Origin: Candidatus Paenibacillus intestinavium
GTDB taxonomy: Bacteria > Bacillota > Bacilli > Paenibacillales > Paenibacillaceae
DNA length: 42,807 nt
Direction: 5' to 3'
Assembly: GCA_019113605.1 (NCBI GenBank)
Contig: DXHF01000228.1
Span: 1 to 42,807, forward strand
Positions within the stretch are counted from its first letter, which is position 1, and each line of letters starts with the position of its first letter. The notes beneath the pieces were generated by a model. The model was not told the DNA's origin. It saw nothing but the letters and a program-made list of their open reading frames with translations, and did not search any database. A program made the translations under genes and the position numbers. This document shows, one piece after another, positions 15,838-37,184 of the stretch.

Positions 15838-15881
15838 ACAACCCAGTAAACTCTTGAATTTCAAGGGAATTGCTGGGTTGT
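15838..15881. terminator. Shared bidirectional terminator, overlapping the 3' end of the PPTase gene
   Basis: ACAACCCAG...CTGGGTTGT between convergent genes. Confidence 0.75.
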
Positions 15882-16604
15882 CTGTTTCCTAATATTACCG
15901 TCTATACGCTGAACGAGCTCCTCCCATTTCACTTCCTTTATCAACATGGAATATCTGTGACCTCCCTCTACTACAATCGATAGCCAGTGGTTATTAGGCA
16001 AACGATGTGATTCCCAATGATAACCTTCAGCCTCTATTTTTTCTAATGATAATGGTACTTCAATCGAATTCAGTAATCGAGACAGTCCATAACCTTCTGC
16101 CTTTAATCGAGCTTCTTTACGTGTCCAGATCATGCAAAGTATTTCAATTACGTTATAAGGAAGACTGTTTACATAATCTAATTCTCTTGACGTTAGAACG
16201 GAGGTCATAATAGAACGATGATCTTCCCTCACTTGTTCCACATCGATGCCAACCTGCTCTCTATGACCAAAAACTGCTGCAACTATCTCATCTGTATGAG
16301 TAATATTAAAATAAATTTCTTGTCCTTCTGTCCGAATAGAGCTCTTATCAAGTACAGGCTTACCATATGCGTTCTTAATTAGTTTAATTTTATCGCTAGC
16401 AACACCATACTTCTCCCCAATATACTCCTTTACTAAGGCACGTCCCGTAACAAACTCCAACCTCTTACGTTTTGTATGATATCGCTCATATACCCCATTC
16501 TCTTCTTCATCTAATACATATTGAGCTAGCTCTCTATCTTGCCAATCCTTGTGCTTAGGTAACGCTATCCACTGAACCTCGAGAATATTTAATGGTTTAT
16601 CCAT
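15861..16604 (-). CDS. 4'-phosphopantetheinyl transferase (Sfp-type)
   Basis: FVTGRALVKEYIGEKYG, GKPVL, FNITHTDEIVAAVF, VGIDVEQVRE, IWTRKEARLKAEGYGL motifs. Confidence 0.93.
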   Translation of the reverse strand: MDKPLNILEVQWIALPKHKDWQDRELAQYVLDEEENGVYERYHTKRKRLEFVTGRALVKEYIGEKYGVASDKIKLIKNAYGKPVLDKSSIRTEGQEIYFNITHTDEIVAAVFGHREQVGIDVEQVREDHRSIMTSVLTSRELDYVNSLPYNVIEILCMIWTRKEARLKAEGYGLSRLLNSIEVPLSLEKIEAEGYHWESHRLPNNHWLSIVVEGGHRYSMLIKEVKWEELVQRIDGNIRKQTTQQFP

Positions 16605-16768: not shown

Positions 16769-18523
16769 ATGATAACAATGAATTTGGAAGCTATTTACCA
16801 CAGAAGTCAACAAAACTGGGCATACGCTTATGACAAACAAACACTGCATATTCGTCTTCGCACAAAAAAAGATGATCTAACAGAGGTTGTTCTTTATTCC
16901 GGTGATAAATACGGCTGGGAGCACACCGACGCTGTTTCACCTATGAAGAAACTTGCATCAGATGGTTTATTCGACTACTGGGAAGCAGAAATACAGCCTA
17001 AATATAGAAGAACGGTATATTACTTCGAATTGTCTGATGGCACACAAAAGAAATATATGTTAGAGAAGGGGTTTTTCGATCAACATCCCGAAATTAAATA
17101 TGAAGGACTTTTCGACTTCCCATTCCTCAATCCTATTGATGTCATTTCTCCACCTGAATGGGTGAAGGATGCTATTTTTTATCAAATATTTCCTGAAAGA
17201 TTTGCAAACGGTGATCCATCTAATGATCCAGAAGGCGTCCTTCCATGGGGCGGGGCTCCCACTCCTACTAACTTTTTCGGCGGTGATCTACAAGGTGTAA
17301 TGGATCATCTGGATTACTTAACCGAGCTAGGTGTTAATGCAATATATTTCAATCCTGTATTTGAGGCTACAACCAATCATAAATACGATACAAAAGATTA
17401 TTTCAAGGTAGATCCTCACTTTGGCACCAATGAAACTTTAAAGCAGCTAGTTGATGCCTGCCACGATAGAGGCATTCGTGTCCTACTAGATGCTGTATTC
17501 AATCACTGTGGAAAAACATTTGAGCCCTTCGTTGATTTATTAGCAAACGGAGCATCATCACCATATACAGATTGGTTTCATATTCGCCAGTGGCCACTTG
17601 AGGTTCGTGATGGCATCCCTACCTATGACACATTCGGCTTTGAACCCATTATGCCAAAATTCAATACTGAAAATGCTGAAGTCAAAGAGTATCTTCTTAA
17701 CGCAGCAAAATTCTGGATTGAAGAAATTGGAATTGACGGCTGGCGTCTAGATGTTGCGAATGAAGTGGATCATCAGTTCTGGCGTGAGTTCAGAACTGTC
17801 GTTAAAAATGCTAATCCAGAAGCCTATGTATTAGGTGAAATTATGCATGATTCTATGCCTTGGCTTCAAGGCGACCAATTTGATGCCGTTATGAACTATC
17901 CGTTCACTAATGCCCTTCTTAACTTCTTTGCCCATGGAAAAACAGATACAGATAGTTTTTCTAATTCTATTCAATCACAGATTGCTAGCTATCCCCGTCA
18001 AATTACAGAGGCATCCTTCAATCTTTTGGGGAGCCATGATACAACGCGTCTGCTAACTTTATGCAGAGGAAATAAAGAACGCTTAAAGCTAGCTTATTTA
18101 TTCGAACTTACCTTTTATGGAGTGCCATGTATTTATTATGGAGATGAGATTGGAATTGATGGTGAGCATGATCCACATAACCGTAAATGTATGGTATGGG
18201 ATCCTAACAAGCAAGACCAAAATCTCCTTGCCTTCTTCCAAAGCACGATCAAACTTCGTAAGCAATATGCTGCTCTACGAACTGGTGAATTACGCTTTAT
18301 TCCACAAGAAAATAAGCAAATACTTGTCTATGAGCGTTGGAATAAGACAGATTCCTTTATCATCATTATAAATAATTCCGAGAAGCAAGCTCATTGCCAA
18401 CTAGAAGTTGAACAGGAGCAATGGATCGATATCGTTACGAATCAATCTCTAGCTCTAACTCCAGATGGTCTAGTAATCGAACTTCCAGCCTTCGGATATA
18501 GTATTGTTAAAGCTACATTATAA
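16769..18523 (+). CDS. Intracellular GH13 cyclomaltodextrinase/neopullulanase-like enzyme, paralog 2
   Basis: Collinear with paralog 1; motifs [37 protein letters not shown]. Confidence 0.93.
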
Positions 18524-18610: not shown

Positions 18611-20584
18611 TTAAGCGAGACCACTGCTTAAGATTACCGCTTGATGAGGACGAAGTGTAAGCTCTGCTCCATTACAACTCCATATTTCCTCTCCCCCTAT
18701 GCTATCTAGCTCTAGTACACATGAATTACCATCTAAACTATATTCCTTGATAGTGAGGGGCAGTGTCTCAACTCCGTTGAGATTAAAGCAACAAATCAGT
18801 TTTTGTCCATTATGCATATACCCATACACGACAATATCCTCTGGAGAATCCGCAATAAAGAAATATTCTGGCCTAATTAAAACTTTCCATTGTACCTTGC
18901 ATTCATGGAGCTTGCTTAGAAGCGCAATCATTGTCGAAGGAGATGCCCAATCAATGTTCATCTGGTTAAAGAAAGCTCTTGGAATATCCGCTCCATCAGT
19001 ATTGTCACCTAGACCACAATTGAGTGGTTGCTGCTCATTCACTTCAAAACCAGTCGTAATGTATGGAATTGCATTAGGTAAAAAATGATTGAATACTGCA
19101 ATCATTCTTGCTAGTTGAACGCCTCCTCTACTCGTAATTCTTGGTGTATCAGCTGTCTCGGCACAAGCAAAAATATGAATATTCATACTAGGCAAATCAC
19201 TTAAATAAGAGACCAAATTAGACTTGCTAATATCAGTCATAATATTCCAGCCACTGCCGAGCATAATATTGTAGCCTACTTCTGCTGCTTTCTTGTGATT
19301 GCGATTAAAGAGATCCTCACTAATAAGAAGTGCCTCAGGCTTCATTTGTTTAATGGTATGAAACATTTCCTCCAATAAAGGTACGGGTAATACATGTCCA
19401 ATATCAATGCGAAATCCATCGACTTTATACGTATTTAGATTATAACGAATACCTTCGATTAGCAGATCCCACAGCTCTCTGTTCGGTTGTTCAGCTGGGT
19501 AGTAGTTACACTTAATCGTATCAAATAGAACATATGGCGCTTGATCTGTCGGTATCAACTCCCTTACCCATGGTGAGAAGTCGGAATACAGTCTAAGAAA
19601 CGTAATATCTGTCCATATAGGCTGCACATCATTAATCCAATCTGAATGTGCGGGCGCTGTCGTTATTGCCATTTCCCGCTCCACTAGTTCAAGCAATTCT
19701 TCCCCGCTATTTTTTGCTTGAAGCTTAAGCCTCTCCCATAATTCCGTATGAAGCTCATTGGGAGGTAAGGAAAACTTTTCAAGAAAAGCTGCAGTCTCCT
19801 TGCTTTGATATACAGTCTCCAACTTATCTGGTGTACACTCTTCGAAAAAGCCAAGCTCAGGGATATGAGGAGGTGCAAATTCCTCTAGCGCATCCTTCTC
19901 AATCCAATACACCCACTCGGGATGGTCATGAATGATTTCACTATTTCTAGCAGTAACACGGGGAATAAAGTCCACTGTTACCTTGATATCTAGCAAGTGA
20001 CAAGCCTCAACGAGCGCAGTCATTTCATCGTTAAGCGTAAAGTCCGTCAGCTCATCAAGCAGCGTATCGTGAAGATTGTCATCGAGATGAAACATCGATT
20101 GTACCGCGTAAGGGGAACCAATATCCCCTTTCAAGTTAATCGCGCTATATCTCGTAATAGGCAGCATATAGAGAATATTAACTCCCATTTGCTTCATTAA
20201 AGGAAGTAATAATATTGTCCTCAAAAACGTTCCAGATTGTATACTACCATCGTGATTATAGTCCCACGCTGTTGAATAACGGATTAAAGTCGAATATATA
20301 ACACTTTCATCCAAATTAGTTGTATCCGTAAGTTTGTAACTCGCAGCATCTGCAAATAATTGATTAATATGTGCATGCAAAAAATGAAAGGCAGGTACGA
20401 GAATTTCGCCTCCTTTCTGTTCAATAATATGTTGATAGCCGCATGTATTCCAGATGGCAGGTAGCCAAAGTGTTTGAGTATCATTATGTTGTCGCTCCTG
20501 AATAAATTGGGCGATACGTTTCAGTGGTTCATGATTTTCTTTATTCAGATCATTCAACTGTCTATCATCACGATATGCCTTCAT
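18611..20584 (-). CDS. GH13 maltosyltransferase-like protein (resembles Thermotoga maritima maltosyltransferase)
   Basis: VEACHLLDIKVTVDFIPRVTARNSEIIHDHPEWVYWI, DVQPIWTDITFLRLYSDF, GFRIDIGHVLP, LLISEDLF and CAETADTPRITSR closely match my recollection of the Thermotoga enzyme; nucleophile Asp, acid Glu and third Asp retained. Confidence 0.75.
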   Translation of the reverse strand: MKAYRDDRQLNDLNKENHEPLKRIAQFIQERQHNDTQTLWLPAIWNTCGYQHIIEQKGGEILVPAFHFLHAHINQLFADAASYKLTDTTNLDESVIYSTLIRYSTAWDYNHDGSIQSGTFLRTILLLPLMKQMGVNILYMLPITRYSAINLKGDIGSPYAVQSMFHLDDNLHDTLLDELTDFTLNDEMTALVEACHLLDIKVTVDFIPRVTARNSEIIHDHPEWVYWIEKDALEEFAPPHIPELGFFEECTPDKLETVYQSKETAAFLEKFSLPPNELHTELWERLKLQAKNSGEELLELVEREMAITTAPAHSDWINDVQPIWTDITFLRLYSDFSPWVRELIPTDQAPYVLFDTIKCNYYPAEQPNRELWDLLIEGIRYNLNTYKVDGFRIDIGHVLPVPLLEEMFHTIKQMKPEALLISEDLFNRNHKKAAEVGYNIMLGSGWNIMTDISKSNLVSYLSDLPSMNIHIFACAETADTPRITSRGGVQLARMIAVFNHFLPNAIPYITTGFEVNEQQPLNCGLGDNTDGADIPRAFFNQMNIDWASPSTMIALLSKLHECKVQWKVLIRPEYFFIADSPEDIVVYGYMHNGQKLICCFNLNGVETLPLTIKEYSLDGNSCVLELDSIGGEEIWSCNGAELTLRPHQAVILSSGLA

Positions 20585-20593
20585 ACTGAATCC

Positions 20594-23500
20594 TCATCCT
20601 TTCTCATGAAACGTTAATTGTGAAAATTGACTACGATGATCAGTCGGCTCCCAAGTCTTCGAGAACAAACCAACACTAAGTATTGGCTGCACCGTTGATT
20701 GTTTATATAGCAGCTCCCAATCAGCCTCCTGCTCATACTTCACTAGAAAACTTAGCTCCCCAGCCTTAGCCTCTACTCGTAAATAATGCATTTCTTGTAT
20801 ATCAGGTCTAACAAACAATTCATAGTTTTCTGTACGCTCCGGATAGAATATCGCTAACAGCTTCCGTCTAGCATTGCCGAACATCATTTTACTTTGATCA
20901 TTAAATTTCACGATAAGACCGCTGTGGAAGCAAGGACCATATTTATTATGATTGATCACTTTTGCTTCTATCGAAAAATGATCATAACTAGGCTGCATAA
21001 GCCATTGAGCAGACTCATCCTTCGTAATCCAAGTATCGTCGATACTATGAACCGTGTGAATCATCGTAATACTCTCATTTTCATGAACCATTGTTGCCCC
21101 GTTAGGATTATGCTCTAGCCATTGTCCTTTTTCAACGGAGATCTGTTCATTAGTAAATCCCGTTTCAAGCTTCGCTTCTATTAACAATCCTCGTACGCTG
21201 TCAAAGAACTCTCTTTCCTTTACTTTAATTCGTTCTACTTCGGAATATAAATCATTCACTTCATAAACATGATCTGCCATTCGATCAAATAAAGTTAACC
21301 TAAATTGTTCCCACTCCTCGCGGATAGTAATACTGAGAGCATTCATGCCATCTATCTGCTCAACGCCCACATCAGCTTTTCCCATGTAGTTGGAGAGAAG
21401 GTCATAATAAACCGACTTATAATTCGTCAACGGAATGAGTCTCGTTATCCGTGACGTGTCCTGTTGCTCCTCAATTTCATGTAGCATCTCCTCCTCGATA
21501 AAGGAAATGGTGGAGTCCCCTTTATGCCATCTCTCTAATTGATTACGATGATCTATCAAAGCGGTTAACCAAGTAGTAGAGGAGGGCTTGTTATCCATAT
21601 TGCTTACGGACCAGAATGAAGGAATTGTTCCAGCAGGACACCAATTGTTCGCATAATACTGACCCATTTTAGCAAGATCATCTACTCGAATGACAAAATC
21701 CCGATAAATTGGCTTTGCACCATCCTCAATATGCATATTATCCAGTATATAAACAAGATCACGCTTAGCATCATAACCTTTCACAATAAAGTAATGCGTA
21801 TGCGGTTCACCCATATAGTGGTTCGAGTAATATAAACCACATAAATCACCAGGAATTAATATACGGTGCTCCTTCTGTAGCTCTTCCCTAAGTAAAATTC
21901 TTAACTCTTTGACATTGGTATATTTGTTTGTATGGATGTCTAAGTGGAATACGGATTTCAACTCTTGCTCATATAAATTAAAGAAATGGGCATGTGGCTC
22001 ACTCTCTCTCTCAAACGGTTGTTCTATCCAATCGTCAGGGAAAAAGGTCATATAGTAGTTGTAATAAAATAAAAACAGATCGAAATAACCGGATTGAAAG
22101 GATTCAAATAATATAGCCATCGGCTTCGTAAAACAATTAACCTGTTCCCAACCATAGGCATCGACATTCGTCTTTATCGCATGATTAATCGAAATCAATG
22201 AAGCCACTGAAGATGAATGATCCTCCTCATTCCAAGGCGTAAACTCAAATTCACCATGACGCTCCCTTAGCAAATCTGCTAAACTAATCGCCGTTGGTGC
22301 CTTATACAAATCTGAAGTTTGAACCGGAATCCCTCTTTCCTTCATTAGAGAAACCACTCTTAGCACATGCAAAGAATGTCCACCAATTTCAAAAAAATGG
22401 TCATCCTCCTCTATGCGATGTCCTGATAAAATTTGTGACCAACAGCCTCTTATTGTTCTTTCCAAAATATGCTCTGTCATATGTTCATTGCTTTGCTTAT
22501 GCTGCCGACTCCTTTGCGGCTGAGGTAAGGCCTTTCGATCTACTTTGCCATTGGGTGTAAGAGGTAATTGCTCTAATGGTACAAAATAAGATGGAATCAT
22601 ATATTGGGGAAGTTTATCCCCCAAATATTTTCTTAGCTCTGTCATTTCGATATCTCTCGTCATACTTACATAGGCAGCTAATTCATGAGTGCCGTCATCA
22701 CTTTTCAAGTCTCTTACAGCCGTCATTTTTATGAAGGGATGTTGCAAAAGTAAACTTTCTATTTCCCCTAATTCTATTCGATAGCCTCGAATTTTCACCT
22801 GATCATCCATACGTCCTAAATGCTGAATTTGACCATTCGGAAGCCATTTTGCTAAATCACCAGTAAGGTACAATCTTTCATTTGCAACAAATGGATGCTC
22901 AATAAATTTCTCATCCGTTAGCTCTGGTCTATTCCAATAACCACGAGCTAGCCCATAACCAGAGATACATAATTGCCCTGATGAACCGATGGGCAACAAT
23001 TCATTATGCTCATTCAAAATATAAATCGAGGTGTTCGCGATCGGAACACCAATCGTAATATACTCTTCATCAGTCAACTCTTGCACTGTTGACCATACTG
23101 TCGTCTCCGTAGGACCATACATATTAAAAATCCGAGCAGAGGTTTGTTCTCGCAGCTGCTTAAATAACGGCATAGGTAGAGGCTCTCCACCAAGCATAAT
23201 AACTTTCAGCTGTCTGAAAGCTTGATGTTCAAGTCCTTCTGCCAACAAAAGCCGCATCCGAGATGGCGTCATCTGCAGTACATCAATATCCTTTTCCACA
23301 ATTAATTGATTAAGCTGTTCACCATCTACCTGCTCCATCTCATCCGCAATAATGACACGCATTCCAGAAGACAGTGGCACCAATGTTTCTAGAACAAAAA
23401 TATCAAAAGATATTGTCGTCACACATAATATACTATAATCCCCATTCATCGGAATTTTCGCTTGAATCGCTCGTATAAAGTTAATAACGGATAGATGTTC

Positions 23501-25417
23501 AATCATGACACCCTTCGGCTTTCCAGTTGATCCCGATGTATAGATGATATATGCCAAATCATGGGGATCGTTCACATTGGAGGGATTCTTCCTTAACTCT
23601 GCCTGCTCGATGTTTTTCCCTTTCCATGCGTCCTCAGCCCCATTAGATGCTAGATTAATGGTTAGCTCCATTAAATCAATATTTTCTACAGACAATACTA
23701 TCCTCTCTCGTAGTTGCTGACCAATGAGAATAATCTGTGCCCCACTGTCTTGCACAACGTAATCAATTCGTTCCTGAGGATATGTTGGATCAATAGGCAA
23801 ATAAGCTCCACCTGCCTTCATAATTCCATAGATTCCAACGATCATCTCAAGAGATCTCTCCGCAAGAATTCCTACAATTGATTGGGCACCAACGCCCCGC
23901 TCTCGAAGCTGGTGTGCTATTCTATTAGATTGTTTATTCAATTGATCATAAGTAAGCTCTTTTCCTTTAAACACAAGTGCCGTTTGATGAGGTGTTAGTA
24001 CCGCTTGCTCCTGAAGCAACTCATGGATTAATTTATTACGAGGTACATCGAGATTCGTACGATTAAATGTTTCAAGTAATTGTGTAATCTCCGTCTCCCT
24101 TAACAAAGAGAGTTCTGCTACTCTACTATTAGGATTTTCTATCATTTGATCTAGCAAGTTTTGTAGAGCACGAATCATATTCGCGATATCTTCTTCTGAA
24201 AACAAATTGTTTTTATACTGTACATCGACAGTAAGTTCATTTTTGCCATTCCAATCATTCACAACAAACTGCAGCGCGTTTAACTGATGACCATTATAAA
24301 TCTCTCGGTGCTCTACCTGCCATCCATTTAACTCCGTTAACATCTTGGTATTGAAACAATTCATTGTGACTTGAAATAACTGCTCTCTACCACTACGTCT
24401 AAGTTCTAATTGTTGTACTAATAGGTCATAAGGATATTTTTGATGCCTATAACAAGACGTTGTAATTTCCTTGAGTCGAGTAAGGAAGCTCACTACCGTC
24501 TCGCCGCTTTCAATCTGTACTCTCAAGGGCATATTACTTGTAAATATTCCGAATATCTCTTTCTCTAATTGACCGTATCGATTGAATATAGGAGTACCGA
24601 TAACTAGATCATCCCTTTTCAAACTTCGGTGCAAATATAGAAGTACTAACCCTGTTAAAATCGTGTTATCGGAACAATTCAGAGATGTCGCCAATCGCCT
24701 AATAGCTGCTGTTGTATACTTATCTAATAAAAATGAGGCTCTACTGCCTTCTACATCATTTGGATCGTCATTTGTAAAAAGTGGTTGTGGTAATGTTGCA
24801 AATTGCTTCAGCCAAAATGTATGATCACGCTGGCAGCGAGAACTTGAGAAATACTTTGCTTCCTGTGAAATGACATTCAAGTACCCTGGCGGCTGTAGCT
24901 TTTCGTATTCACTGTTTTTCAATAGGTTCATGTAAATCTTGCCAATACCTTCTGTTAACAGTTGTACCGACCAACCATCCGCAATAATATGATGTAGCTT
25001 AATAAGCAAACCTGTTCGTACACTATCAAGGCGGAACATCGTAAACTTATACAACTGATCGTCAGTAATTGAAATCGCCCGTGTTGCCTCTTTCTCAACC
25101 CATTGTTGCATGACAAGCTCAGCATTCTCTTCACCAGAAAAGTCATATAACTCAATGGCTATAGGCTCCTTAGTTCGCCAAACATACTGCTTTATTTCAC
25201 CTTCGTATTCTGTGAACTTAAGATGGAAGGCTTCATGTTGGCTTACAAATAAAGAAATAGATTGCTCAAGTAATGAAAAATTGACATTGCCCTCTATTAT
25301 ACTTACCAAGCCCACCACATGAATGGGACTACTCGGATATCGCAACTCCACATAACTAATTCTCTTTTGTGAATGTGTTAAAGGTTCAAGAGCGACACCG
25401 TTCATAACAGTATCCAT
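20594..25417 (-). CDS. Single-module NRPS: C-A-T plus BtrH/papain-like region plus C-terminal ConA-like (DUF1349-type) region
   Basis: C: HHIIADG; A: YIIYTSGSTGKPKGV, NMYGPTETTVW, YLTGDLAKWLPNG, GYRIELGEIE, NGKVDRKALP; T: FFEIGGHSLHVL. About 500 aa follow, including NCFTKPMAILFES, HTHYFIVKGYDAKRDLVYILDN and a beta-rich end (YGPCFHSGLIVKFNDQSKMMFG). No thioesterase motif seen. Confidence 0.9.
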   Translation of the reverse strand: MDTVMNGVALEPLTHSQKRISYVELRYPSSPIHVVGLVSIIEGNVNFSLLEQSISLFVSQHEAFHLKFTEYEGEIKQYVWRTKEPIAIELYDFSGEENAELVMQQWVEKEATRAISITDDQLYKFTMFRLDSVRTGLLIKLHHIIADGWSVQLLTEGIGKIYMNLLKNSEYEKLQPPGYLNVISQEAKYFSSSRCQRDHTFWLKQFATLPQPLFTNDDPNDVEGSRASFLLDKYTTAAIRRLATSLNCSDNTILTGLVLLYLHRSLKRDDLVIGTPIFNRYGQLEKEIFGIFTSNMPLRVQIESGETVVSFLTRLKEITTSCYRHQKYPYDLLVQQLELRRSGREQLFQVTMNCFNTKMLTELNGWQVEHREIYNGHQLNALQFVVNDWNGKNELTVDVQYKNNLFSEEDIANMIRALQNLLDQMIENPNSRVAELSLLRETEITQLLETFNRTNLDVPRNKLIHELLQEQAVLTPHQTALVFKGKELTYDQLNKQSNRIAHQLRERGVGAQSIVGILAERSLEMIVGIYGIMKAGGAYLPIDPTYPQERIDYVVQDSGAQIILIGQQLRERIVLSVENIDLMELTINLASNGAEDAWKGKNIEQAELRKNPSNVNDPHDLAYIIYTSGSTGKPKGVMIEHLSVINFIRAIQAKIPMNGDYSILCVTTISFDIFVLETLVPLSSGMRVIIADEMEQVDGEQLNQLIVEKDIDVLQMTPSRMRLLLAEGLEHQAFRQLKVIMLGGEPLPMPLFKQLREQTSARIFNMYGPTETTVWSTVQELTDEEYITIGVPIANTSIYILNEHNELLPIGSSGQLCISGYGLARGYWNRPELTDEKFIEHPFVANERLYLTGDLAKWLPNGQIQHLGRMDDQVKIRGYRIELGEIESLLLQHPFIKMTAVRDLKSDDGTHELAAYVSMTRDIEMTELRKYLGDKLPQYMIPSYFVPLEQLPLTPNGKVDRKALPQPQRSRQHKQSNEHMTEHILERTIRGCWSQILSGHRIEEDDHFFEIGGHSLHVLRVVSLMKERGIPVQTSDLYKAPTAISLADLLRERHGEFEFTPWNEEDHSSSVASLISINHAIKTNVDAYGWEQVNCFTKPMAILFESFQSGYFDLFLFYYNYYMTFFPDDWIEQPFERESEPHAHFFNLYEQELKSVFHLDIHTNKYTNVKELRILLREELQKEHRILIPGDLCGLYYSNHYMGEPHTHYFIVKGYDAKRDLVYILDNMHIEDGAKPIYRDFVIRVDDLAKMGQYYANNWCPAGTIPSFWSVSNMDNKPSSTTWLTALIDHRNQLERWHKGDSTISFIEEEMLHEIEEQQDTSRITRLIPLTNYKSVYYDLLSNYMGKADVGVEQIDGMNALSITIREEWEQFRLTLFDRMADHVYEVNDLYSEVERIKVKEREFFDSVRGLLIEAKLETGFTNEQISVEKGQWLEHNPNGATMVHENESITMIHTVHSIDDTWITKDESAQWLMQPSYDHFSIEAKVINHNKYGPCFHSGLIVKFNDQSKMMFGNARRKLLAIFYPERTENYELFVRPDIQEMHYLRVEAKAGELSFLVKYEQEADWELLYKQSTVQPILSVGLFSKTWEPTDHRSQFSQLTFHEKG

Positions 25418-25452
25418 ATCGTTTCCCCCTTTTTTGAACGATTATACTTTAC

Positions 25453-26841
25453 TTAGGCTGAGAGATTTTCCGAGTTGGAGATTAGTGTTCGTAGCCATTT
25501 TCCTGAACGGAATCTCATATAACCAATCGTAAATCGTACGACTTCTTCGAGTGATAGAAAAAAGTAGACCCAGAACAAAGGCTGTTTCCATACAAAAGAT
25601 AAAAGTAAACCTAGTGGGACTCCAATTAACCAAGTAGCTGTAGACTCCATAATAAATACAAATTTACTGTCTCCACCACTTTGGAGAATTCCACCAGCAA
25701 TGATCATATTGGCCACCTTCACCCATATGAAAGCAGCAAAAACCCAAATAACGTAGATAGATAATTGATTAGCTTCCTCTGATATTTGGAAAAACCTTGT
25801 ATACAGTGGGGCTAGAAACGCGATTAACACACCTAATCCAATCGAGATGAGAATTCCAATTTTTACGAGTTTTTGAGCATACTCCCGCGCTGTAGCATGG
25901 TCTCCAGCACCTAAACGATTGCCTACCATAACACTTGCAGCCCCTCCCAAACCAGCAAGCAAGCCGATCATTAATCCTTGTAGTGGGAAGGTTATCGTCA
26001 TTGCAGTCATCTCTGTTGTTCCCATTCTGCTGTAAATGATGGCATACACTGCTTCACCTAACACCCACACCAATTCCGTTAAAACGATCGGATACATAGT
26101 CACTAGAAACTTCTTTGTAAGTGGCTTGGATACTTGAATTAACTCCTTAATTGCCACTCCTCCAGGTAGTCGATAACGATAAACAGCACCAATAATAAGT
26201 ATGCACTCAACAATTCTTGAAATGACCGTAGCGTACGCTGCACCCGCCAAGCCAAGCTGCGGAAATCCGAATTTACCAAATATAAGAAAATAGTTTAATA
26301 TGATGTTAATGATAACTGTGCATAAGCTAACATACATTGGAAACTTTACATGTCCTGTACTTCGTAGTATTGCTGAGTAAAGCATTGTAAGCATAGTTGG
26401 TACATAGCTTAATGCTACAATTTTCAGGAAAATAAAGCCCTCCTCAGTCACCTGGCTATCTGTTGTAAATAAGGATAAAAGCATCTCTGGCTTAAAAAAC
26501 ACTAGAATTGAAAATAGCACAGATAAAGAAAGCCCTATTGCAAGTGCCAAACCAAGCAACTGTGAAATACTTTTCGTGTCTTTATTGCCCCAGAATTGAG
26601 CAGCATACACGGAAAGTGCAGCTGCTAGTCCAGCTAGAACAACCGAAATAACACTAAAAATTTTACTAGCGATACCTACTGATGCGATCGCAACATCTCC
26701 AAGCTGACCGACCATGATCTGATCGGTCATGTAAAGCATTGCCATAATTAAACTCTGTAGTGCAATCGGAATGGCTAGCTTATATAGATTTTTATAAAAT
26801 GCTTTATTATCGTTTAACTCCATGCCCACTCCTCTTCCCAT
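25453..26841 (-). CDS. MATE family efflux transporter
   Basis: 12-TM MATE pattern (ALQSLIMAMLYMTDQIMVGQLGDVAIASVGIASKI; GLLAGLGGAASVMVGNRLGAGDHATAREYA). Likely start MELNDNKAFYK. Confidence 0.93.
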   Translation of the reverse strand: MGRGVGMELNDNKAFYKNLYKLAIPIALQSLIMAMLYMTDQIMVGQLGDVAIASVGIASKIFSVISVVLAGLAAALSVYAAQFWGNKDTKSISQLLGLALAIGLSLSVLFSILVFFKPEMLLSLFTTDSQVTEEGFIFLKIVALSYVPTMLTMLYSAILRSTGHVKFPMYVSLCTVIINIILNYFLIFGKFGFPQLGLAGAAYATVISRIVECILIIGAVYRYRLPGGVAIKELIQVSKPLTKKFLVTMYPIVLTELVWVLGEAVYAIIYSRMGTTEMTAMTITFPLQGLMIGLLAGLGGAASVMVGNRLGAGDHATAREYAQKLVKIGILISIGLGVLIAFLAPLYTRFFQISEEANQLSIYVIWVFAAFIWVKVANMIIAGGILQSGGDSKFVFIMESTATWLIGVPLGLLLSFVWKQPLFWVYFFLSLEEVVRFTIGYMRFRSGKWLRTLISNSENLSA

Positions 26842-27530
26842 TAACTAAGCTTTTTATTGTCATGCAGAGCCCCTTCTGATCTGATATAGCGCATTAATGT
26901 GTAATTACTTTTTAACTGTATATCTGCAACTTCGAATCGCTTCGTATAGGAAAGTTGATTGTAGCCTTGTCCATCTACGAGTGATATATTGGCAGTGCCA
27001 CCGATAATAATGGGTAGCTGCATCAGTATAATTTCATTAACTAAGTTTTGATCAAATACATACCAGTTCAACAATCCGCCACCCTCTACCATAAGATGAT
27101 GAATGCCGTACTTCGTCTCTAATATTTCAAATAGTTTATCGAAATCAACAAGATCATGACCGCAAACAATAACCTCTTTCCCCTTCTGACGAATTAATTC
27201 ATTTTTCCGCTCATCCCAACCATTCTCTGTCGTAACGATAATAGTACGCTCGTCATCAGCAAAAATATTGCTCTCTAACGGGATATCTAATGTTCTCGTT
27301 GGAATGATTCTAACGGGATTTTTCGCCTGCTCAAAACGATTAGTCAGAAAGGGATTGTCTGTAAGTATCGTATTTTTTCCAACCATAATACCGTTGACTT
27401 CTCCACGAAACTTATGAATGTATTGCATATCTTCCTCTGTAAATAATTGAAATAATTCCTTACTAGAATAGCCTGATCCGAACGTCAATTTCCCATCAAT
27501 AGATACTTGACTAAATACAGTTACCTTCAT
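26841..27530 (-). CDS. RibD C-terminal-domain/DHFR-like reductase
   Basis: MKVTVFSQVSIDGKLTFG...GIMVGKNTILTDNPFLTNR...HHLMVEGGGLLNWYVFDQNLVNEI; no deaminase domain. Confidence 0.85.
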   Translation of the reverse strand: MKVTVFSQVSIDGKLTFGSGYSSKELFQLFTEEDMQYIHKFRGEVNGIMVGKNTILTDNPFLTNRFEQAKNPVRIIPTRTLDIPLESNIFADDERTIIVTTENGWDERKNELIRQKGKEVIVCGHDLVDFDKLFEILETKYGIHHLMVEGGGLLNWYVFDQNLVNEIILMQLPIIIGGTANISLVDGQGYNQLSYTKRFEVADIQLKSNYTLMRYIRSEGALHDNKKLS

Positions 27531-28693
27531 AAAATTTGTTCCTCCTTCTGTTCATTTAGAAATTGCTCAATCTGTTCAACTATGCCTACTGCAGTACTTA
27601 CCATCATCCGATGTGCTTCATTGGCTTGCCCATGCTCTAGCTCACTAAGACCTGCATCCATTCCTATCCAAGCCGCAATCATATATGGACTAACTGGAAT
27701 GGGAATGCAAGTATTCAACATATTGATTAGCATTTGCAGGTTTGGATTATCTTTATTTTTTAATTGCTCCATAACTACTGAACTAGCAGGTATTCGTTGG
27801 ACTCGATCTGCCCATTTCATCTGGTTCTCATCATTTAACATAAATCTAATGAATTGCTGTATATGTTGACCACACACGGAAGCTAATGACTGATTTGGAA
27901 AGACGATACCAACGGATGATGACATCGAGGTGGATATTCTCCCATTTATGGTAGGCAGATTTCCAACACCTAGTCTTTTGCCCATTTTCCTTTCTAAGTA
28001 ATTAAAGATCCATTCCCCTGTTATAATCGCTCCTACTTTGCCTTCAATAAATTGTCCGAGCAAAGCCGTTGCTCCATCCAGGCTAACTAAATGCCCAACT
28101 TCCTTTTGGGACTGAACAAAGGATAATGCTGCTTTCATCTCCTGGGTATCAAGATCTGGTCTCCCATCTCTCATAGGCCACCCGGAAAACGAAGTAAGAT
28201 ATGGGATAAAGCTATAGGATTGCTTAAGATCCACGGCGATCGGAATAATATTTTGATCTTTTTCCTTATTGTCCAAAGCCACTATTTCCTCCCAAGAACT
28301 AGGCATCATGTCATAAAAATCTTTATTATAAAACAGGACCAAATGATTACCCGTAATAATAGGAACACCTACTTGTTCACCCTCATATTGCATCGATTGT
28401 AAAATATGCTCTGAAATAATATCGTTACAAAGTTCCTGCCGAACAATGGAATAACGACCTAGTTTCTTGTAAGATGACATATCCGAAGGTACAAATGCCA
28501 TATGAGGACCTTCGCCCGTTTCGTGGATATCCTTTATGCTTTCTCCAAGTTGTGCAATGCTCATCACTTCTAGTTTTATCCCAATACCATACTGTTCACT
28601 AAACGATTGGCATATGTCCTCAAGCACCTCAATCGACGTATCACCTTCACCGTTAAACTCATGCCAAATCGTTAACTCCCTTATCGTCTCCAT
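27527..28693 (-). CDS. Maltose/sugar-binding-protein-like protein lacking a signal peptide
   Basis: METIRELTIWHEFNGEGDTSIEVLEDICQSFSEQYGIGIKLEV starts directly in the mature SBP fold; VGVPIITGNHLVLFYNKDFYDMMPSSWEEI and IEGKVGAIITGEWIFNYL are MalE-like. Confidence 0.83.
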   Translation of the reverse strand: METIRELTIWHEFNGEGDTSIEVLEDICQSFSEQYGIGIKLEVMSIAQLGESIKDIHETGEGPHMAFVPSDMSSYKKLGRYSIVRQELCNDIISEHILQSMQYEGEQVGVPIITGNHLVLFYNKDFYDMMPSSWEEIVALDNKEKDQNIIPIAVDLKQSYSFIPYLTSFSGWPMRDGRPDLDTQEMKAALSFVQSQKEVGHLVSLDGATALLGQFIEGKVGAIITGEWIFNYLERKMGKRLGVGNLPTINGRISTSMSSSVGIVFPNQSLASVCGQHIQQFIRFMLNDENQMKWADRVQRIPASSVVMEQLKNKDNPNLQMLINMLNTCIPIPVSPYMIAAWIGMDAGLSELEHGQANEAHRMMVSTAVGIVEQIEQFLNEQKEEQIL

Positions 28694-28764
28694 TGCCGTA
28701 TAGCTCCTTTCAGCTCATAACTATCTACCTTCCAGCAACATTTCGCACCATTATGTGCTAATGC

Positions 28765-29805
28765 TCATGCAGGTATAAAAACCGTCTTCACCGTTTCAAT
28801 ACGTTCTTCTTGTGATGATTTCCCTTGACTTAATAACTCTTCAATAGCATCTTCGTATTCACTCAACTTATAACGCTTAGTAACTAATCCATCCAATCGA
28901 TTCATATCGCCGGCTTGTTGTAGCGCCTCATGAAACATATGACGATATTCACCCGCTCCAATAATTTTAATTCCTTCTTGAATAAAAGAAGTAGGTGTAC
29001 AAGTGTAGCGGTATTGGGCATTGATACCAAATGGAACGATTCGCCCCCCTCTTTCAATCCAGCGTTCCGCAGTTTCTAATTGATTGCCGACAGTATCAAT
29101 TACGACATCAAATTTTCGTTCGCCTAACCATGAATTTACGGCAGCAATATCTAGTTGATCAGGTTTTACAGCTACATTAGCAATGGTTGAGGCTACACTT
29201 AATCGATAATCATTCAGTTCTGTAGCTGCAGTAAAGCTAGCCTGTTGTCGTGCTACCATCTGACATAATAATCCCATCGGCCCCGAACCTAACACGAGTA
29301 CATGATCATCTGGACGAACACCCGCCTCTCTAAAATTATGCAGCACGCATGCTAATGGCTCGATCATTACTGCGGTTTCCCAAGACATCTCATCAGGAAT
29401 ACGATGAATAAATTCCTCCTGCGTAACAAACCATTTCGCGAAGGTTCCATGAACATTCAAGCCCGATATAGACATCCCTCTACCATCTTCAGCAACACAT
29501 AAATGCGGCATATCCCGTAGACAAAATCGACATTGACCACAGCTTTTATTGGGATCAATAACAACCCGATCTCCGATATCTACTCTGGTAACGCTGCTCC
29601 CCTTTTCAACGACAATACCAACGGCTTCATGTCCTCGAATGACATCGTATACGCCAAGCTCCTTACCGGAGATGACTGCCAAATCTGTTCCGCAAATTCC
29701 CGTTAATTGAATATGAATTTTCACATCCCAAGGTGAAATGATTGCTGGTTCCTCCATATGTTGAAGCTCCAGCCTATTATTGCTCGTCCATATTAAAGCT
29801 TCCAT
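28765..29805 (-). CDS. Zn-dependent medium-chain dehydrogenase (polyol/amino-cyclitol dehydrogenase type)
   Basis: GICGTDLAVISG, GHEAVGIVVEKGSSV, structural Zn CGQCRFCLRDMPHLC, GSGPMGLL. Confidence 0.9.
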   Translation of the reverse strand: MEALIWTSNNRLELQHMEEPAIISPWDVKIHIQLTGICGTDLAVISGKELGVYDVIRGHEAVGIVVEKGSSVTRVDIGDRVVIDPNKSCGQCRFCLRDMPHLCVAEDGRGMSISGLNVHGTFAKWFVTQEEFIHRIPDEMSWETAVMIEPLACVLHNFREAGVRPDDHVLVLGSGPMGLLCQMVARQQASFTAATELNDYRLSVASTIANVAVKPDQLDIAAVNSWLGERKFDVVIDTVGNQLETAERWIERGGRIVPFGINAQYRYTCTPTSFIQEGIKIIGAGEYRHMFHEALQQAGDMNRLDGLVTKRYKLSEYEDAIEELLSQGKSSQEERIETVKTVFIPA

Positions 29806-29840
29806 ACTTACGCACTCCCCTGATCTAAAATAATGTTTTC

Positions 29841-31583
29841 TTACTTTATATTTCTGAGCAATCGAAAACCATGTCCCTCTAATCTAAGCGAAAGTGATTG
29901 GAATTCTGAATGTAGTTCTTCATCAGTCCACATATCTTGCCAATCGCCATCCACCTCCAAATTTAATAAATAGGCTTCCTCTGACGTATTCATAGCTACT
30001 ATAAATCTCTCTTCTTCATCCCAACGCATAAATGCTAGGCTGCGATCCCCAGTCAAGGCATGAAGAAATTTATATCCTCCATATCGTAAAGCTGGATAGG
30101 CCCTTCGAATGCTAATCAGCTTCTTATAATAACTGAATAGCTCTTCATTTTGATGGTCTTGATCCCATATCATGCAGCGTCGGTTATCTGGGTCATCACA
30201 GCCTTCCATTCCAATTTCATCACCATAATAAATAGAGGGGGCTCCATAATAGGTAAATTGAAACAAAACAGCGAGCTTTAACCGATCTACGTTCCCTTCA
30301 CATAGAGTTAGAAACCGTGCAGTATCATGGCTACCAAGTAGCTGGAAGGAAGCTTCTATAACCTGTAAGGGATAACTCACCAGCTGTGCACTAACTATAT
30401 CCGCAAATGCTTTACTATCTATGCTGCGATGAGCAAAAAACTGCATGACGCCATAGCGAATGGGGTAATCCATAACAGCATCCAATTGATCACCTTGCAG
30501 CCAAGCCATTGCATCATGCATTATTTCACCGACTATATAGATGTCTTGCTTAACTGCTTTAACGCTATCTCTAAACTGACGCCAAAATCGATGATCCACT
30601 TCATTGGCAACATCAAGTCGATACCCGTCGATATTACAGCTATTTAGCCAATACAAAGATATATTAACTAAATATTCACATAATTCTGGATTTTTCGTAT
30701 TGAATTTAGGTAGCATATGCTCAAATCCAAAAGTCTCATATCGTTTTCCACTATCACCATGAGCCACTGACCAATCCTTCACAAGAAACCAATCTGCATA
30801 TCTAGAAGCTGATCCTTTCTCAATAAAATCTATAAACGGTGGAAAGTTACCTCCACTATGATTAAAAACAATGTCCAGTAGCACACGAATACCGCGTTGA
30901 TGACAAGCTTCAACTAACTCCTTCAATATGTCTATAGTCCCAAAACATTTGTCGACAGCATAATAGTCCGACGTATCATACTTATGGTTAGAATCTGCTT
31001 GGAAAATAGGTGTGAAATAAATAGCATTAATACCAAGCTCCACCAAGTAATCCAAATGATTCATAACCCCTTGCAGATCACCACCAAAAAAATTTGTTTT
31101 TGTAGAGACTGTTCCCCATTCTTGAGTATTCTCAGGTGAAATTAAAGGATTTCCATTCGCAAATCGATCGGGAAATATTTGATAAAAAATAGTATCTTTG
31201 ACCCATGATGGAGGACAGATCCAATCCGCGTCATTCACGTATGGATATTCGAAATTACCAAAATCATAGGGAGCTGCATTCTCTTGACACCAGCGTTCTG
31301 CATAATAAATAATTTCTGAACCTGACTGCACAATAAAGCGATAACTTAGCCTGCCAAAGAGTGGTTTAAGTTTGACCTCCCAATAATCAAAGCGTTCATC
31401 AGCAAGATGTTTATACATATCAATTTTGGTTTCGGTCCTATACCAATCATATTTATCTCCATAGCTAACCTGTACTTTTTCTACATCATTCTTCATCGTT
31501 CGAAGCCGCAAAAAAATCGTATCCTGATTATACAAGAAGGCCCAATTTTGCTTATGCCTATGATATAATGCCTCAATATTCAC
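29841..31583 (-). CDS. Intracellular GH13 cyclomaltodextrinase/neopullulanase-like enzyme, paralog 3 (first gene of the NRPS operon)
   Basis: [66 protein letters not shown]. Start trimmed to GTG at 31583 with SD GAGGTGG; the ORF-track TTG start at 31607 lies in the terminator U-run. Confidence 0.9.
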   Translation of the reverse strand: MNIEALYHRHKQNWAFLYNQDTIFLRLRTMKNDVEKVQVSYGDKYDWYRTETKIDMYKHLADERFDYWEVKLKPLFGRLSYRFIVQSGSEIIYYAERWCQENAAPYDFGNFEYPYVNDADWICPPSWVKDTIFYQIFPDRFANGNPLISPENTQEWGTVSTKTNFFGGDLQGVMNHLDYLVELGINAIYFTPIFQADSNHKYDTSDYYAVDKCFGTIDILKELVEACHQRGIRVLLDIVFNHSGGNFPPFIDFIEKGSASRYADWFLVKDWSVAHGDSGKRYETFGFEHMLPKFNTKNPELCEYLVNISLYWLNSCNIDGYRLDVANEVDHRFWRQFRDSVKAVKQDIYIVGEIMHDAMAWLQGDQLDAVMDYPIRYGVMQFFAHRSIDSKAFADIVSAQLVSYPLQVIEASFQLLGSHDTARFLTLCEGNVDRLKLAVLFQFTYYGAPSIYYGDEIGMEGCDDPDNRRCMIWDQDHQNEELFSYYKKLISIRRAYPALRYGGYKFLHALTGDRSLAFMRWDEEERFIVAMNTSEEAYLLNLEVDGDWQDMWTDEELHSEFQSLSLRLEGHGFRLLRNIK

Positions 31584-31605
31584 TTTTCCCACCTCTTTTT
31601 CAGAC

Positions 31606-31660
31606 AAAAAAAAGGTACAACATCGCCTTAGACGAGGTTGTACCTTTCAGTAGCATTGCC
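31606..31660 (-). promoter_or_regulatory. Leader copy D: antiterminator-like hairpin overlapping an intrinsic terminator, heading the NRPS operon
   Basis: Minus strand GGCAATGCTACTGAAAGGTACAACC (31660-31636) and GGTACAACCTCG...CGATGTTGTACC (31644-31614) then U8. Confidence 0.83.
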
Positions 31661-32001: not shown

Positions 32002-34152
32002 ATGACTATTCGTACTTCGAGATTTATTATTCAATTACTTCTTGTCGCTGTTCTTATGATTGGACTACTACTACCTGTCTCTCCAGAATCTACTGCATTT
32101 GCTGCACCTGATACCTCTGTTACCAACAAGCAAAACTTCTCTACAGATGTCATATATCAAATTGTTACGGATCGATTTGTTGACGGAAATACGGCCAACA
32201 ATCCAACCGGCACTGCATTTTCTTCTGGTTGCACTAATTTACGAGTATACTGTGGCGGTGACTGGGCCGGTATTACATCAAAAATTAATGATAACTACTT
32301 TTCCGATATGGGCATTACCGCACTTTGGATATCTCAACCTGTTGAAAACATCTATTCTGTCATCAATTATTCTGGAGTGAATAACACTGCATATCATGGG
32401 TATTGGGCACGTGATTTCAAGAAGACTAATCCGGCCTTCGGAAGCATGAGTGATTTCCAAACTCTTATTAATACGGCACATGGGAAAAACATTAAAATTA
32501 TTATTGATTTTGCACCTAATCACACTTCCCCTGCTTCCGAAACAGAACCAACTTTTGCTGATAACGGCAGACTTTTCAACAATGGTACTCTTCTTGGTGG
32601 TTATACCAATGATACGAATAAATTGTTTCATCACAATGGTGGGACAAGTTTCTCCTCAACTGAAGATGGTATTTACAGAAATTTATATGACCTTGCAGAT
32701 ATTAATCATAATAACAATACTATTGATACTTACTTCAAAGATTCGATCAAACTTTGGCTCGATATGGGAATCGATGGTATTCGTGTTGATGCCGTTAAGC
32801 ATATGCCTTTCGGATGGCAAAAGAGCTGGATGTCCTACATCCATAGTTATAAGCCAGTCTTTACATTCGGAGAATGGTTCCTTGGTGTCAACGAAATAAG
32901 TGCTGAAAATTACAGCTTTGCTAATGAAACAGGCATGAGCCTGCTTGACTTCGAATTCGGTCAAAAAGTCCGTCAAGTTTTCCGTGATAATACAGCTACA
33001 ATGTATGGTTTGGACAGTATGCTAACAGGTACAGCTGCAGGCTACACACAAGTTGCAGATCAAGTAACTTTTATCGACAATCATGATATGGATCGTTTCC
33101 AAGCAACTGGCGCTTCCAATCGTAAATTAGAACAAGCCCTTGCTTTCACTTTAACTTCTCGTGGTGTTCCAGCAATATATTATGGAACTGAGCAGTATAT
33201 GACAGGTAACGGTGATCCAGGTAATCGTGGGAAAATGACTTCATTCAGTAAAACAACAACAGCATATAATGTCATTAAGAAGCTTGCCCCATTACGTAAA
33301 TCTAATCCTGCTATTGCTTATGGGACAACGCAACAACGTTGGATTAATAACGATGTCTATATCTATGAACGTAAATTCGGAAATAATGTAGCTGTCGTTG
33401 CTGTTAATCGTGGATCTACTAGTGCATCTATTAGTAGTCTAAGTACTTCTCTACCAGCAGGTACCTACACAGATGTACTTGGTGGTCTTCTAAGTGGAAA
33501 TAGTATCACTGCTTCTAGTGCTGGTGCAGTAACTACATTCAGTCTTGCTGCTGGGGCTGTTGGTGTATGGCAGTATACAGCTACTTCTGCTCCACTCATC
33601 GGTAATATCGGACCGGATATGGGTAAAGCAGGAAATACTGTTACTATTGATGGACGCGGCTTCGGAACGACGAAGGGTACTGTTTACTTTGGTACAACCG
33701 CTGTAACGGGTACAAGCATTACTTCATGGGAAGATACACAAATTAAAGTAGTAGTGCCCAACATTACAGCAGGTAAGTATAATGTGAAAATTCGTACATC
33801 CACTGCAGTCGATAGTAATAGCTATGCTAACTATAATATTCTAACAGGTAATCAAGTTACCGTTAGATTCGTAGTGAACAACGCAACAACTACGTTAGGC
33901 CAAAGTGTATACCTTACAGGTAGTGTTGCGGAACTAGGTAATTGGGATACAAGTAAAGCAATTGGTCCAATGTACAATCAAGTAATTAATGCCTATCCAA
34001 CTTGGTATTACGACGTTAGTGTTCCAGCAAATACAACGATAGAGTATAAATACTTCAAAAAAGCAGGTTCAACTATTACTTGGCAAAGTGGAAGTAATAG
34101 TACCATTGTTACCCCTGCAAGCGGCGTAACTACTGTTACGATCGGCTTCTAA
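32002..34152 (+). CDS. cgt: Secreted cyclomaltodextrin glucanotransferase (GH13 + IPT/TIG + CBM20)
   Basis: Signal peptide ending [39 protein letters not shown]...[21 protein letters not shown]...[20 protein letters not shown]...[11 protein letters not shown]-terminal [29 protein letters not shown]. Confidence 0.96.
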
Positions 34153-34187
34153 TTTCGCTTTCTTCATTGTATCGCCTTGCTAGATTC

Positions 34188-34237
34188 AAAGCCCACAAGC
34201 TTATCGCCTTTAATAAAGCGATATGTTTGTGGGCTTT
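34188..34237 (+). terminator. Intrinsic terminator of the CGTase gene
   Basis: AAAGCCCACAAGC..TATCGC/GCGATA..GTTTGTGGGCTTT. Confidence 0.88.
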
Positions 34238-34257
34238 CTTCATTAATCATTTAACAT

Positions 34258-34569
34258 TTAGTTAACTATAAAAAGGGTAATTACCAAAATAATTAAGACT
34301 AACAAGCCGATAATTAAACCTGCATGTCCGTAATCATTATCTGTAGTTATTCCTAATAAAAAAGCGATTAATGCATCAATAGCAGATATACTAATTAGAA
34401 TAACTGATTGCGTTATAAAACCTATGATGTACATATGTATGGCAATAATCCCTAATATGAGCGCTACAATACCTTTATGAGCTAAATTCCTCTTGTTCTC
34501 CATCTCCATATCTCTCCCATCTATTATGTAGAGGTAATATTTATCTGAGACTTTCCCCTGATGTACCAT
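34258..34569 (-). CDS. Small membrane protein of unknown function
   Basis: Three hydrophobic segments; likely start MEMENKRNLAHKG. Confidence 0.6.
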   Translation of the reverse strand: MVHQGKVSDKYYLYIIDGRDMEMENKRNLAHKGIVALILGIIAIHMYIIGFITQSVILISISAIDALIAFLLGITTDNDYGHAGLIIGLLVLIILVITLFIVN

Positions 34570-34672
34570 ATCATTACACTGAAAGACGTATTTAGAAACC
34601 TTATTGTTGCATAATTTTTCCTATTACTTTCGAAATAACTGTAGACAAAGCTGTAATCTTTATGCAATAATT

Positions 34673-34688
34673 ACTTAAACGATTAAGT
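34673..34688. promoter_or_regulatory. Candidate LacI-family operator
   Basis: ACTTAAACGATTAAGT, near-palindrome upstream of the regulator at 34736. Confidence 0.7.
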
Positions 34689-34735
34689 TACTTTATTATG
34701 CTTCCGATGTACTTTCATCTCAGAGAGGTTACATC

Positions 34736-35686
34736 GTGACGTCGATGAAAACTGTTAGGAGGATGACGATGAAGAAAGCGACTTTGAAAGATATAGCTAA
34801 CTTAGCACAAGTCTCTGTCGCCACTGTAAGCTATGTACTTAACAACGTAAGCACTCAGACTATTCCAGAGGAAACTCGTTGCAGAGTGTTAGAAGCCTCT
34901 AAAGAACTACAATACATTCCTAATCTCGCTGCGAGATCTCTTGTCATGCAGAAAACAGGACTTATAGGCATTCTCGTTAATCGAGCTAACAATGAAGGTT
35001 ATTGGAAGAAGTTTCGTTACGCAGCCCTTATTGAGTATTTGGAACGCAACCTTACAGAACGAGGTTATCATGTTGTTCTTTCTAGTATCGATGCATCTGC
35101 ACCCAGATTAGACATTATTTCCGAACGAAAACTTGATGGTGTATTTCTTATTGATGTTCGATCAGATACTTTCCACCATATTTCACGCTTATTTTCAGTA
35201 GGCGTACCATTGATTGTAATTGACAGCCTAATTGATGATTCATTGTTTTATAAAGTTGTCGATGATTACGAGCAATTGTTGACGAAGCATATAACTACTC
35301 CCACCTCATCTAATCATTACTTAATTGTTGATGATTTTAACAATATCGAACTAGTTTCTTCTATTAAAAAGGTTTCTGCTCTCGCTATTGAGGATATTCA
35401 CGTCATGAGCAACGAGCAAGAGCTTCGACTTTTTCTTAATAGGCAAAAAGGACGCTCGGGTATTATTATTAACGAATATATTAGTGTGCTAGCCGCAAAA
35501 TATACCGATCCATCTACTTTAACGGTAATCTGCAATGCTGGTTGCCCTGACATCGTCCCCACGCAAGCAAAGTTATTCACTTATGGAGAACAGAAATACG
35601 AGGTTACTCTTGAGCTTATGCTAAAGTTAATGAATAATCCCTTATCTGGTTCTTCTAATAAATACATTAAAATTCAAGCAGAGTAA
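34736..35686 (+). CDS. LacI-family transcriptional regulator
   Basis: HTH ATLKDIANLAQVSVATVSYVLNN, hinge YIPNLAARSLVMQKTGLIGIL; likely start MKKATLKD. Confidence 0.92.
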   Translation: MTSMKTVRRMTMKKATLKDIANLAQVSVATVSYVLNNVSTQTIPEETRCRVLEASKELQYIPNLAARSLVMQKTGLIGILVNRANNEGYWKKFRYAALIEYLERNLTERGYHVVLSSIDASAPRLDIISERKLDGVFLIDVRSDTFHHISRLFSVGVPLIVIDSLIDDSLFYKVVDDYEQLLTKHITTPTSSNHYLIVDDFNNIELVSSIKKVSALAIEDIHVMSNEQELRLFLNRQKGRSGIIINEYISVLAAKYTDPSTLTVICNAGCPDIVPTQAKLFTYGEQKYEVTLELMLKLMNNPLSGSSNKYIKIQAE

Positions 35687-35707
35687 TTAACTCTGTTCTC
35701 CACATCA

Positions 35708-35723
35708 ACTTAAACGTTTAAGT
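35708..35723. promoter_or_regulatory. Candidate LacI-family operator
   Basis: Perfect 16-bp palindrome ACTTAAACGTTTAAGT upstream of the MFS gene; matches the 34673 site at 15 of 16 positions. Confidence 0.75.
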
Positions 35724-35796
35724 CAAACGAAGAACATGTAACAATAGATTCGATGGATTAACCTCTTCTAATTTCAACTATAAAGGAGAATGACTA

Positions 35797-37095: not shown

Positions 37096-37141
37096 TTCTC
37101 CAGTTAGTTAAACAAAACAAATGTAATTTAGTAAATAATGT

Positions 37142-37170: not shown

Positions 37171-37184
37171 CTCCTTAATAAAAA

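Follow-up and report, generated by a model that had tools for sequence, protein, structure and literature searches.

This report concerns a seven-gene operon in a stretch of 42,807 nucleotides (hereafter the window) from Candidatus Paenibacillus intestinavium (contig DXHF01000228.1 of assembly GCA_019113605.1), a genome estimated to be 84% complete. The operon, confirmed as a block of seven open reading frames (ORFs) on the minus strand at 18611-31607, combines two alpha-glucan enzymes of family GH13 with a medium-chain dehydrogenase/reductase (MDR), a solute-binding protein (SBP) resembling the maltose-binding protein (MBP), a reductase of the RibD_C family, a MATE exporter and a non-ribosomal peptide synthetase (NRPS). 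Its genes are:

29841..31607, minus strand: neopullulanase/cyclomaltodextrinase-type GH13, first gene of the operon (588 aa; Pfam Alpha-amylase, Alpha-amylase_N and Malt_amylase_C)
28765..29805, minus strand: MDR dehydrogenase, relative of the GutB1 aminopolyol dehydrogenase (346 aa; ADH_N and ADH_zinc_N)
27527..28693, minus strand: MalE/MBP-like maltodextrin-binding protein, the SBP (388 aa; PRK09474 MalE and MBP matches in the PDB)
26841..27530, minus strand: RibD_C reductase (229 aa; PF01872, E 1.5e-41)
25453..26841, minus strand: MATE exporter (462 aa; MatE, E 7e-55)
20594..25417, minus strand: single-module NRPS with the layout C-A-PCP, BtrH-like part, helical linker and concanavalin A (ConA)-like tail (1607 aa)
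18611..20584, minus strand: maltosyltransferase-like, divergent GH13 with the triad D394/E423/D479 intact (657 aa; 1GJU, E 4e-115)

Read from the first gene to the last, the first two junctions are gaps (35 and 71 bp), the next two are overlaps (4 and 1 bp) and the final two are gaps again (35 and 9 bp). Two diverged congeners (G042 and G050) carry a collinear block, with protein identities of 55-79%, and since gene order is kept there despite different outer flanks, the block is regarded as one unit and not as a chance arrangement.

Regarding the wider distribution, a scan of a genome collection with the maltosyltransferase-like GH13 returned 43 loci, 41 of them close (at least 43% identity), with the closest in Bacillus sp. 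FJAT-26390 and Paenibacillus alkaliterrae. MDR, SBP and RibD_C all adjoin the GH13 in 38 of these 41 loci, and MATE does so in 37; the gaps fall at contig ends (L020, L031 and L048, and L045 for MATE). The usual order is MDR - GH13 - SBP - RibD_C - MATE, and these five genes, namely the dehydrogenase, the maltosyltransferase, the cytosolic MBP-like protein, the reductase and the exporter, are the core of the system, to which the NRPS is an add-on. Core loci occur in Paenibacillaceae and in gut and rumen Lachnospiraceae and their relatives, the latter forming a clade in the GH13 tree. The NRPS is encoded in six of the 41 loci, in the window and at L172 in an additional genome; together the eight members make up another clade (Shimodaira-Hasegawa-like approximate likelihood ratio test support 98-99). 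As judged from this tree, the NRPS is a late addition confined to one monophyletic branch, and it is dispensable, in that most homologous loci carry the remaining genes without it. The original prediction, made from the letters of the window, was right about the seven collinear genes and their families and about the maltosyltransferase-like character of the last GH13; its view of a pathway in which alpha-glucan enzymes are joined to an NRPS with a BtrH-like end is supported, the pathway being conserved, while its NRPS-centred framing gives way to the five-gene core.

Other genes vary among the members. The neopullulanase-type GH13 that opens the operon is shared by the NRPS-type loci with L021, L024 and L025. 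A HAD-family protein follows RibD_C in those last three loci, all from Paenibacillus, and in one Clostridium locus (L045), and an AAC(3)-family N-acetyltransferase gene, in place of an NRPS, follows RibD_C in six gut or rumen loci (L045, L046, L047, L049, L050 and L051), one assigned by Pfam and the other five grouped with it by BLAST. Such a gene in a core operon could serve self-protection or tailoring of a product amine, and these operons are a possible reservoir of AAC(3) genes. GH13 homologues of other Bacillota had at first been counted with the core family; six such loci were inspected and lack RibD_C and MDR, and therefore the count was narrowed. These six are taken as ordinary glucan enzymes, and two of them adjoin a glycogen-phosphorylase-like ORF, so named from reading its sequence. 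Among 400 genomes of the window's taxonomic family, 50 match the GH13 alignment (E ≤ 1e-60), a count of this GH13 and not of the whole core.

The best solved relative of the maltosyltransferase-like GH13 is the Thermotoga maritima maltosyltransferase 1GJU. The catalytic triad is invariant among eight diverse members aligned, and maltosyl transfer is predicted for the enzyme. A more distant relative in Actinomyces oris (L058:8476-12996) lies in a row with a DUF6271 protein and a MATE exporter, without RibD_C or MDR. The SBP of the core is cytosolic, because a signal peptide is absent in every homologue with a readable start, all of which begin at the mature domain (a few over-extended ORF calls were left out of this reading). 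In its alignment with MBP, for which we presume the residue numbers, the tryptophans at W230 and W340 are invariant and the residues at E111 and W62 differ.

The MDR is 41-44% identical to dehydrogenases of aminotransferase-associated clusters in other Bacilli (43-44% for those of azasugar-type clusters) and about 30% identical to other MDRs of Bacilli. In the tree it forms one clade with azasugar-type dehydrogenases, i.e., those of the three-gene cluster (3GC) kind, with support of 95/99 and apart from other MDRs, and by this comparison it groups with the azasugar aminopolyol dehydrogenases of the GutB1 type. A simple sugar dehydrogenase was considered and rejected: the PDB and NCBIfam matches are to generic polyol, threonine and alcohol dehydrogenases, but the tree places the protein with the azasugar enzymes. 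The 3GC gabT1-yktC1-gutB1 makes 1-deoxynojirimycin, and in azasugar clusters the oxidation by the dehydrogenase leads to ring closure (PMC8382821). One locus of the comparison set, L107, carries a class-III aminotransferase, an inositol-phosphatase and an MDR, and its aminotransferase fits the published azasugar consensus by eye with one N-to-P difference (PMC8382821). That consensus, as a regular expression, has no match in the core loci, and neither an aminotransferase nor a phosphatase is among the window operon genes. Three loci in Paenibacillaceae (L109, L110 and L113) combine a class-III aminotransferase, a GutB1-like MDR, an MFS-like ORF and a HAD phosphatase; they are azasugar-like clusters from which the published aminotransferase consensus is absent. 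The suggestion that the MDR belongs to an aminocyclitol pathway is not borne out, given its clade and an operon without cyclase or aminotransferase, and the acarbose/validamycin route was likewise dropped, because those ORFs of the window that were examined include no cyclase.

The RibD_C reductase was aligned with a segment of E. coli RibD, whose sequence and residue-number mapping are our assumption; a RibD-like ORF from the second RibD locus of the window genome, used as the canonical row, gives an identical reading. The positions of R188 and R211, which contact the substrate phosphate in Acinetobacter RibD (PMC3668577), hold invariant arginines in the cluster proteins, and the pyrimidine-sandwiching Trp of RibD is replaced by an insertion with a conserved SSKxLF. 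The protein falls below two curated cut-offs (TIGR01508, 164.7 vs 186.45; TIGR00227, 147.1 vs 150.15). A riboflavin enzyme was rejected as its identity, since a canonical ribD sits elsewhere in the genome. Apart from the core member G103, the other strong RibD_C matches in a Bacillota sample belong to ORFs 361-417 aa long, which is the length expected of a canonical bifunctional RibD. In the galactosyrin (gsn) cluster of Pseudomonas syringae, the RibD homologue GsnB reduces 5-phosphoribosylamine, GsnC is a phosphatase and GsnA a PF00107 oxidase, and there is no aminotransferase (PMC11844564). By analogy, the RibD_C protein is proposed to be a phosphoribosyl-amine reductase with a GsnB-like role. 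The original prediction had it reduce a sugar-like substrate: the reductase family holds, and the evidence points to a phosphoribosyl-amine as in galactosyrin (PMC11844564), not to a generic sugar. A plasmid search for gsn relatives with RibD_C and MDR led to two RibD_C neighbourhoods, both unrelated on inspection, and to a closest MDR match in Embleya without usable annotation; nothing useful was found among phage sequences.

The NRPS of the window branch is made up of the following parts:

24074..25384, minus strand: condensation (C) domain with HHIIADG (PF00668, residues 12-448; best solved match 7c1k)
22544..24016, minus strand: adenylation (A) domain with the code DILQMGMVWK (PF00501 and PF13193; code read by eye)
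22268..22456, minus strand: carrier protein with GGHSL (PF00550; serine motif kept)
21596..22198, minus strand: BtrH-like acyltransferase part with the conserved candidate triad Cys1095/His1208/Asp1226 (BtrH_N below cut-off; fold matches; invariant columns)
20603..21121, minus strand: C-terminal concanavalin-like (DUF1349-like) domain, a possible sugar-binding module (fold matches to 3o12, 3mep and GH43 accessory domains)

All seven NRPSs aligned share the A-domain code DI(L/T)Q(M/L)GMVWK, which we take to be of the glycine type, and the C motif HHxxxDG; 7c1k is presumably a C domain of the starter type. In a structural model of moderate confidence, the first half of the tail is tentatively matched to AziU2-U3 and CtaG (E 3e-6 to 6e-5), which we take to be acyltransferases, and the last part matches DUF1349/ConA-like folds. 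Elsewhere, at L170:5855-12254 (G1070), a BtrH-like protein that stands alone and exceeds the PF14399 cut-off is encoded together with a more distant maltosyltransferase-like GH13, one other GH13 and a 4'-phosphopantetheinyl transferase (PPTase); this may be a second type of cluster for acyl-maltodextrins.

The operon of the window is bordered by three further genes of interest:

32002..34152, plus strand: secreted cyclodextrin glucanotransferase (CGTase), transcribed divergently from the operon (matches CGTases of solved structure over its full length)
16769..18523, plus strand: neopullulanase-like GH13, transcribed towards the end of the operon (family match; kept in position in two congeners, 73% identity)
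15861..16604, minus strand: PPTase, the likely partner of the NRPS (PF01648)

In G042 and G050 the neopullulanase lies at the left and the CGTase (81% identical), then the PPTase, at the right, so that the conserved unit extends past the seven genes to the CGTase and the neopullulanase. The PPTase, left of the operon in the window, is also near the cluster in Cohnella. Both lineages have starch enzymes next to the cluster, which is consistent with a starch mimic, and the starch-degrading context noted earlier for the window is supported. The adjoining block at 32002-41564 holds the CGTase, a LacI-type regulator, an MFS transporter, a neopullulanase and a second CBM20 amylase-like enzyme, and a separate sugar-uptake block at 172-9555 holds an SBP, two permeases, a two-component system, an FGGY kinase and a class II aldolase. 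An Rfam scan found no elements, and a promoter and terminator scan was uninformative, its counts being no higher than those in shuffled sequence.

Starting from the gene content, its conservation, and the family and residue evidence, which are directly observed, we infer what the enzymes act on, in which order they do so, whether a ring closes and what the product does. That the cluster makes a maltodextrin-linked amino or iminosugar is quite possible, if short of probable. An aminopentitol or iminosugar is the simplest reading because the reductase and oxidase are of the galactosyrin kind, also without an aminotransferase; the presence of a maltosyltransferase and a maltodextrin-binding protein suggests that this aglycone is joined to a malto-oligosaccharide; and both AAC(3) and the BtrH-like end of the NRPS suggest that the product carries an amine. 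RibD_C would reduce a phosphoribosyl-amine, most simply the 5-phosphoribosylamine of the purine pathway, to 1-amino-1-deoxyribitol-5-phosphate, whose phosphate would be removed by a phosphatase, i.e., the HAD enzyme in some members and a housekeeping enzyme in the window organism. The MDR would then turn one hydroxyl into a carbonyl, and ring closure with the amine could give an iminosugar. The cytosolic binding protein would hold maltodextrin, from which the maltosyltransferase would shift maltosyl units onto this aglycone. In the window branch, the NRPS would load glycine, probably acylated by the N-terminal C domain, the BtrH-like domain would place the resulting (acyl)glycyl group on the amine, and the lectin-like tail may hold sugar, before MATE exports the final product. 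More tentatively, we propose a new and widespread Bacillota class of natural products: maltosylated iminosugars from 5-phosphoribosylamine, bearing an NRPS-borne (acyl)glycine in the soil branch and N-acetylated in several gut members, that mimic starch on alpha-glucan enzymes. The likely use of the product would be of this kind, at sites of starch degradation; that it mimics starch or inhibits amylases is plausible, though unproven. Of the products foreseen by the original prediction, the maltodextrin-linked one is retained as the best reading, amine-bearing and made by an altered route with a core that lacks the NRPS, and the starch mimetic survives in altered form, with starch enzymes beside the cluster, an MDR of the azasugar type and an NRPS that is not central. 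As it had also supposed, no cluster with such a gene combination is described in the open-licence papers searched, an absence that is no proof of novelty.

Several points weigh against this proposal. The Trp is also absent from archaeal-type riboflavin reductases, for which reason its loss is suggestive only; most members, the window's included, lack a phosphatase gene; and the likeness to gsn is one of gene families, not of sequence orthology to GsnA and GsnB. Moreover, the acceptor of the maltosyltransferase is only a proposed one, BtrH_N (PF14399) scores 23.8 and 25.5 bits vs a cut-off of 29.7, and the tail model has a mean predicted local distance difference test (pLDDT) score of 69.

The alternative that survives best, though we think it unlikely, is a linear maltosylated aminopentitol, i.e., a pseudo-aminoglycoside. 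Here the MDR would act on the sugar portion, or would introduce a keto group with no ring being closed, and the amine, left free, would receive an acylglycyl group in the NRPS branch or an acetyl group in the gut branch. AAC(3)-family enzymes, present in six gut loci, typically acetylate primary amines, and BtrH and CtaG-type enzymes acylate primary amines; however, the MDR clades with azasugar-cluster dehydrogenases, whose oxidation leads to ring closure (PMC8382821). It is improbable that RibD_C and the MDR act on another phosphoribosyl compound, such as a riboflavin- or pterin-type intermediate, to yield a maltosylated pyrimidine or ribityl conjugate: RibD_C scores nearest the archaeal-type 2,5-diamino-6-ribosylamino-pyrimidinone reductase (TIGR01508; 2azn, 6p8c), but the cluster has no other riboflavin-pathway gene, the pyrimidine-stacking Trp is missing and the canonical ribD is elsewhere. 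Just as doubtful is a glycolipid or lipopeptide-type surfactant, with N-acylglycine on maltodextrin and RibD_C and MDR preparing the amino anchor, that would serve surface activity or starch adhesion, not inhibition. An N-terminal C domain without upstream module, its match to 7c1k and the lectin-like tail would suit such a compound, but the core without NRPS is commoner, and therefore acylation is not the main function, and the starter-type assignment is weak by score. A plain maltodextrin catabolic or storage operon with RibD_C, MDR and NRPS as unrelated passengers is highly improbable: ordinary starch and maltodextrin genes are its neighbours, and distant maltosyltransferase relatives stand alone in other Bacillota, but the five-gene core moves together through differing surroundings in two classes, and MATE export and acyltransferases are not catabolic.

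If the proposal of maltosylated iminosugars is true, acarbose-like pseudo-maltooligosaccharides would be reached by a second route, one whose chemistry does not depend on aminocyclitols, and the recently described phosphoribosylamine route to iminosugars would be extended. A function would be given to a cytosolic maltose-binding protein, new scaffolds for alpha-glucosidase and amylase inhibitors would become available, and compounds made by starch degraders of soil and of gut and rumen could shape competition and digestion.

Compared with known systems, the cluster shares with gsn a RibD-type reductase beside a PF00107 dehydrogenase, a transporter and the lack of an aminotransferase. The phosphatase of gsn has a counterpart only in some members (HAD) and none in the window operon, and gsn is without maltosyltransferase, MBP-like protein, NRPS and AAC(3). 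To the azasugar 3GC it is linked by the clade of its MDR; unlike the 3GC, it has no aminotransferase or inositol-phosphatase, and RibD_C would replace the amine-introducing step. Its GH13 is homologous to 1GJU over about 510 residues and has identical catalytic residues, yet belongs to a cluster-specific clade. With the cysteine acyltransferases BtrH, CtaG and AziU2-U3, the NRPS end may have in common a fold, predicted from a model of moderate confidence, besides its conserved Cys/His/Asp set, and in such a role a carrier-bound acyl group would pass to an amine; unlike them, it forms one protein with a C-A-PCP module and a tail of the ConA-like kind, and its Pfam score is below the cut-off. 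The acarbose-type pseudo-oligosaccharides, finally, are made with aminocyclitol genes that the cluster lacks, and nitrogen source and aglycone differ; the likeness, one of working only, would be that of an amine-bearing maltodextrin mimic made beside secreted starch enzymes.

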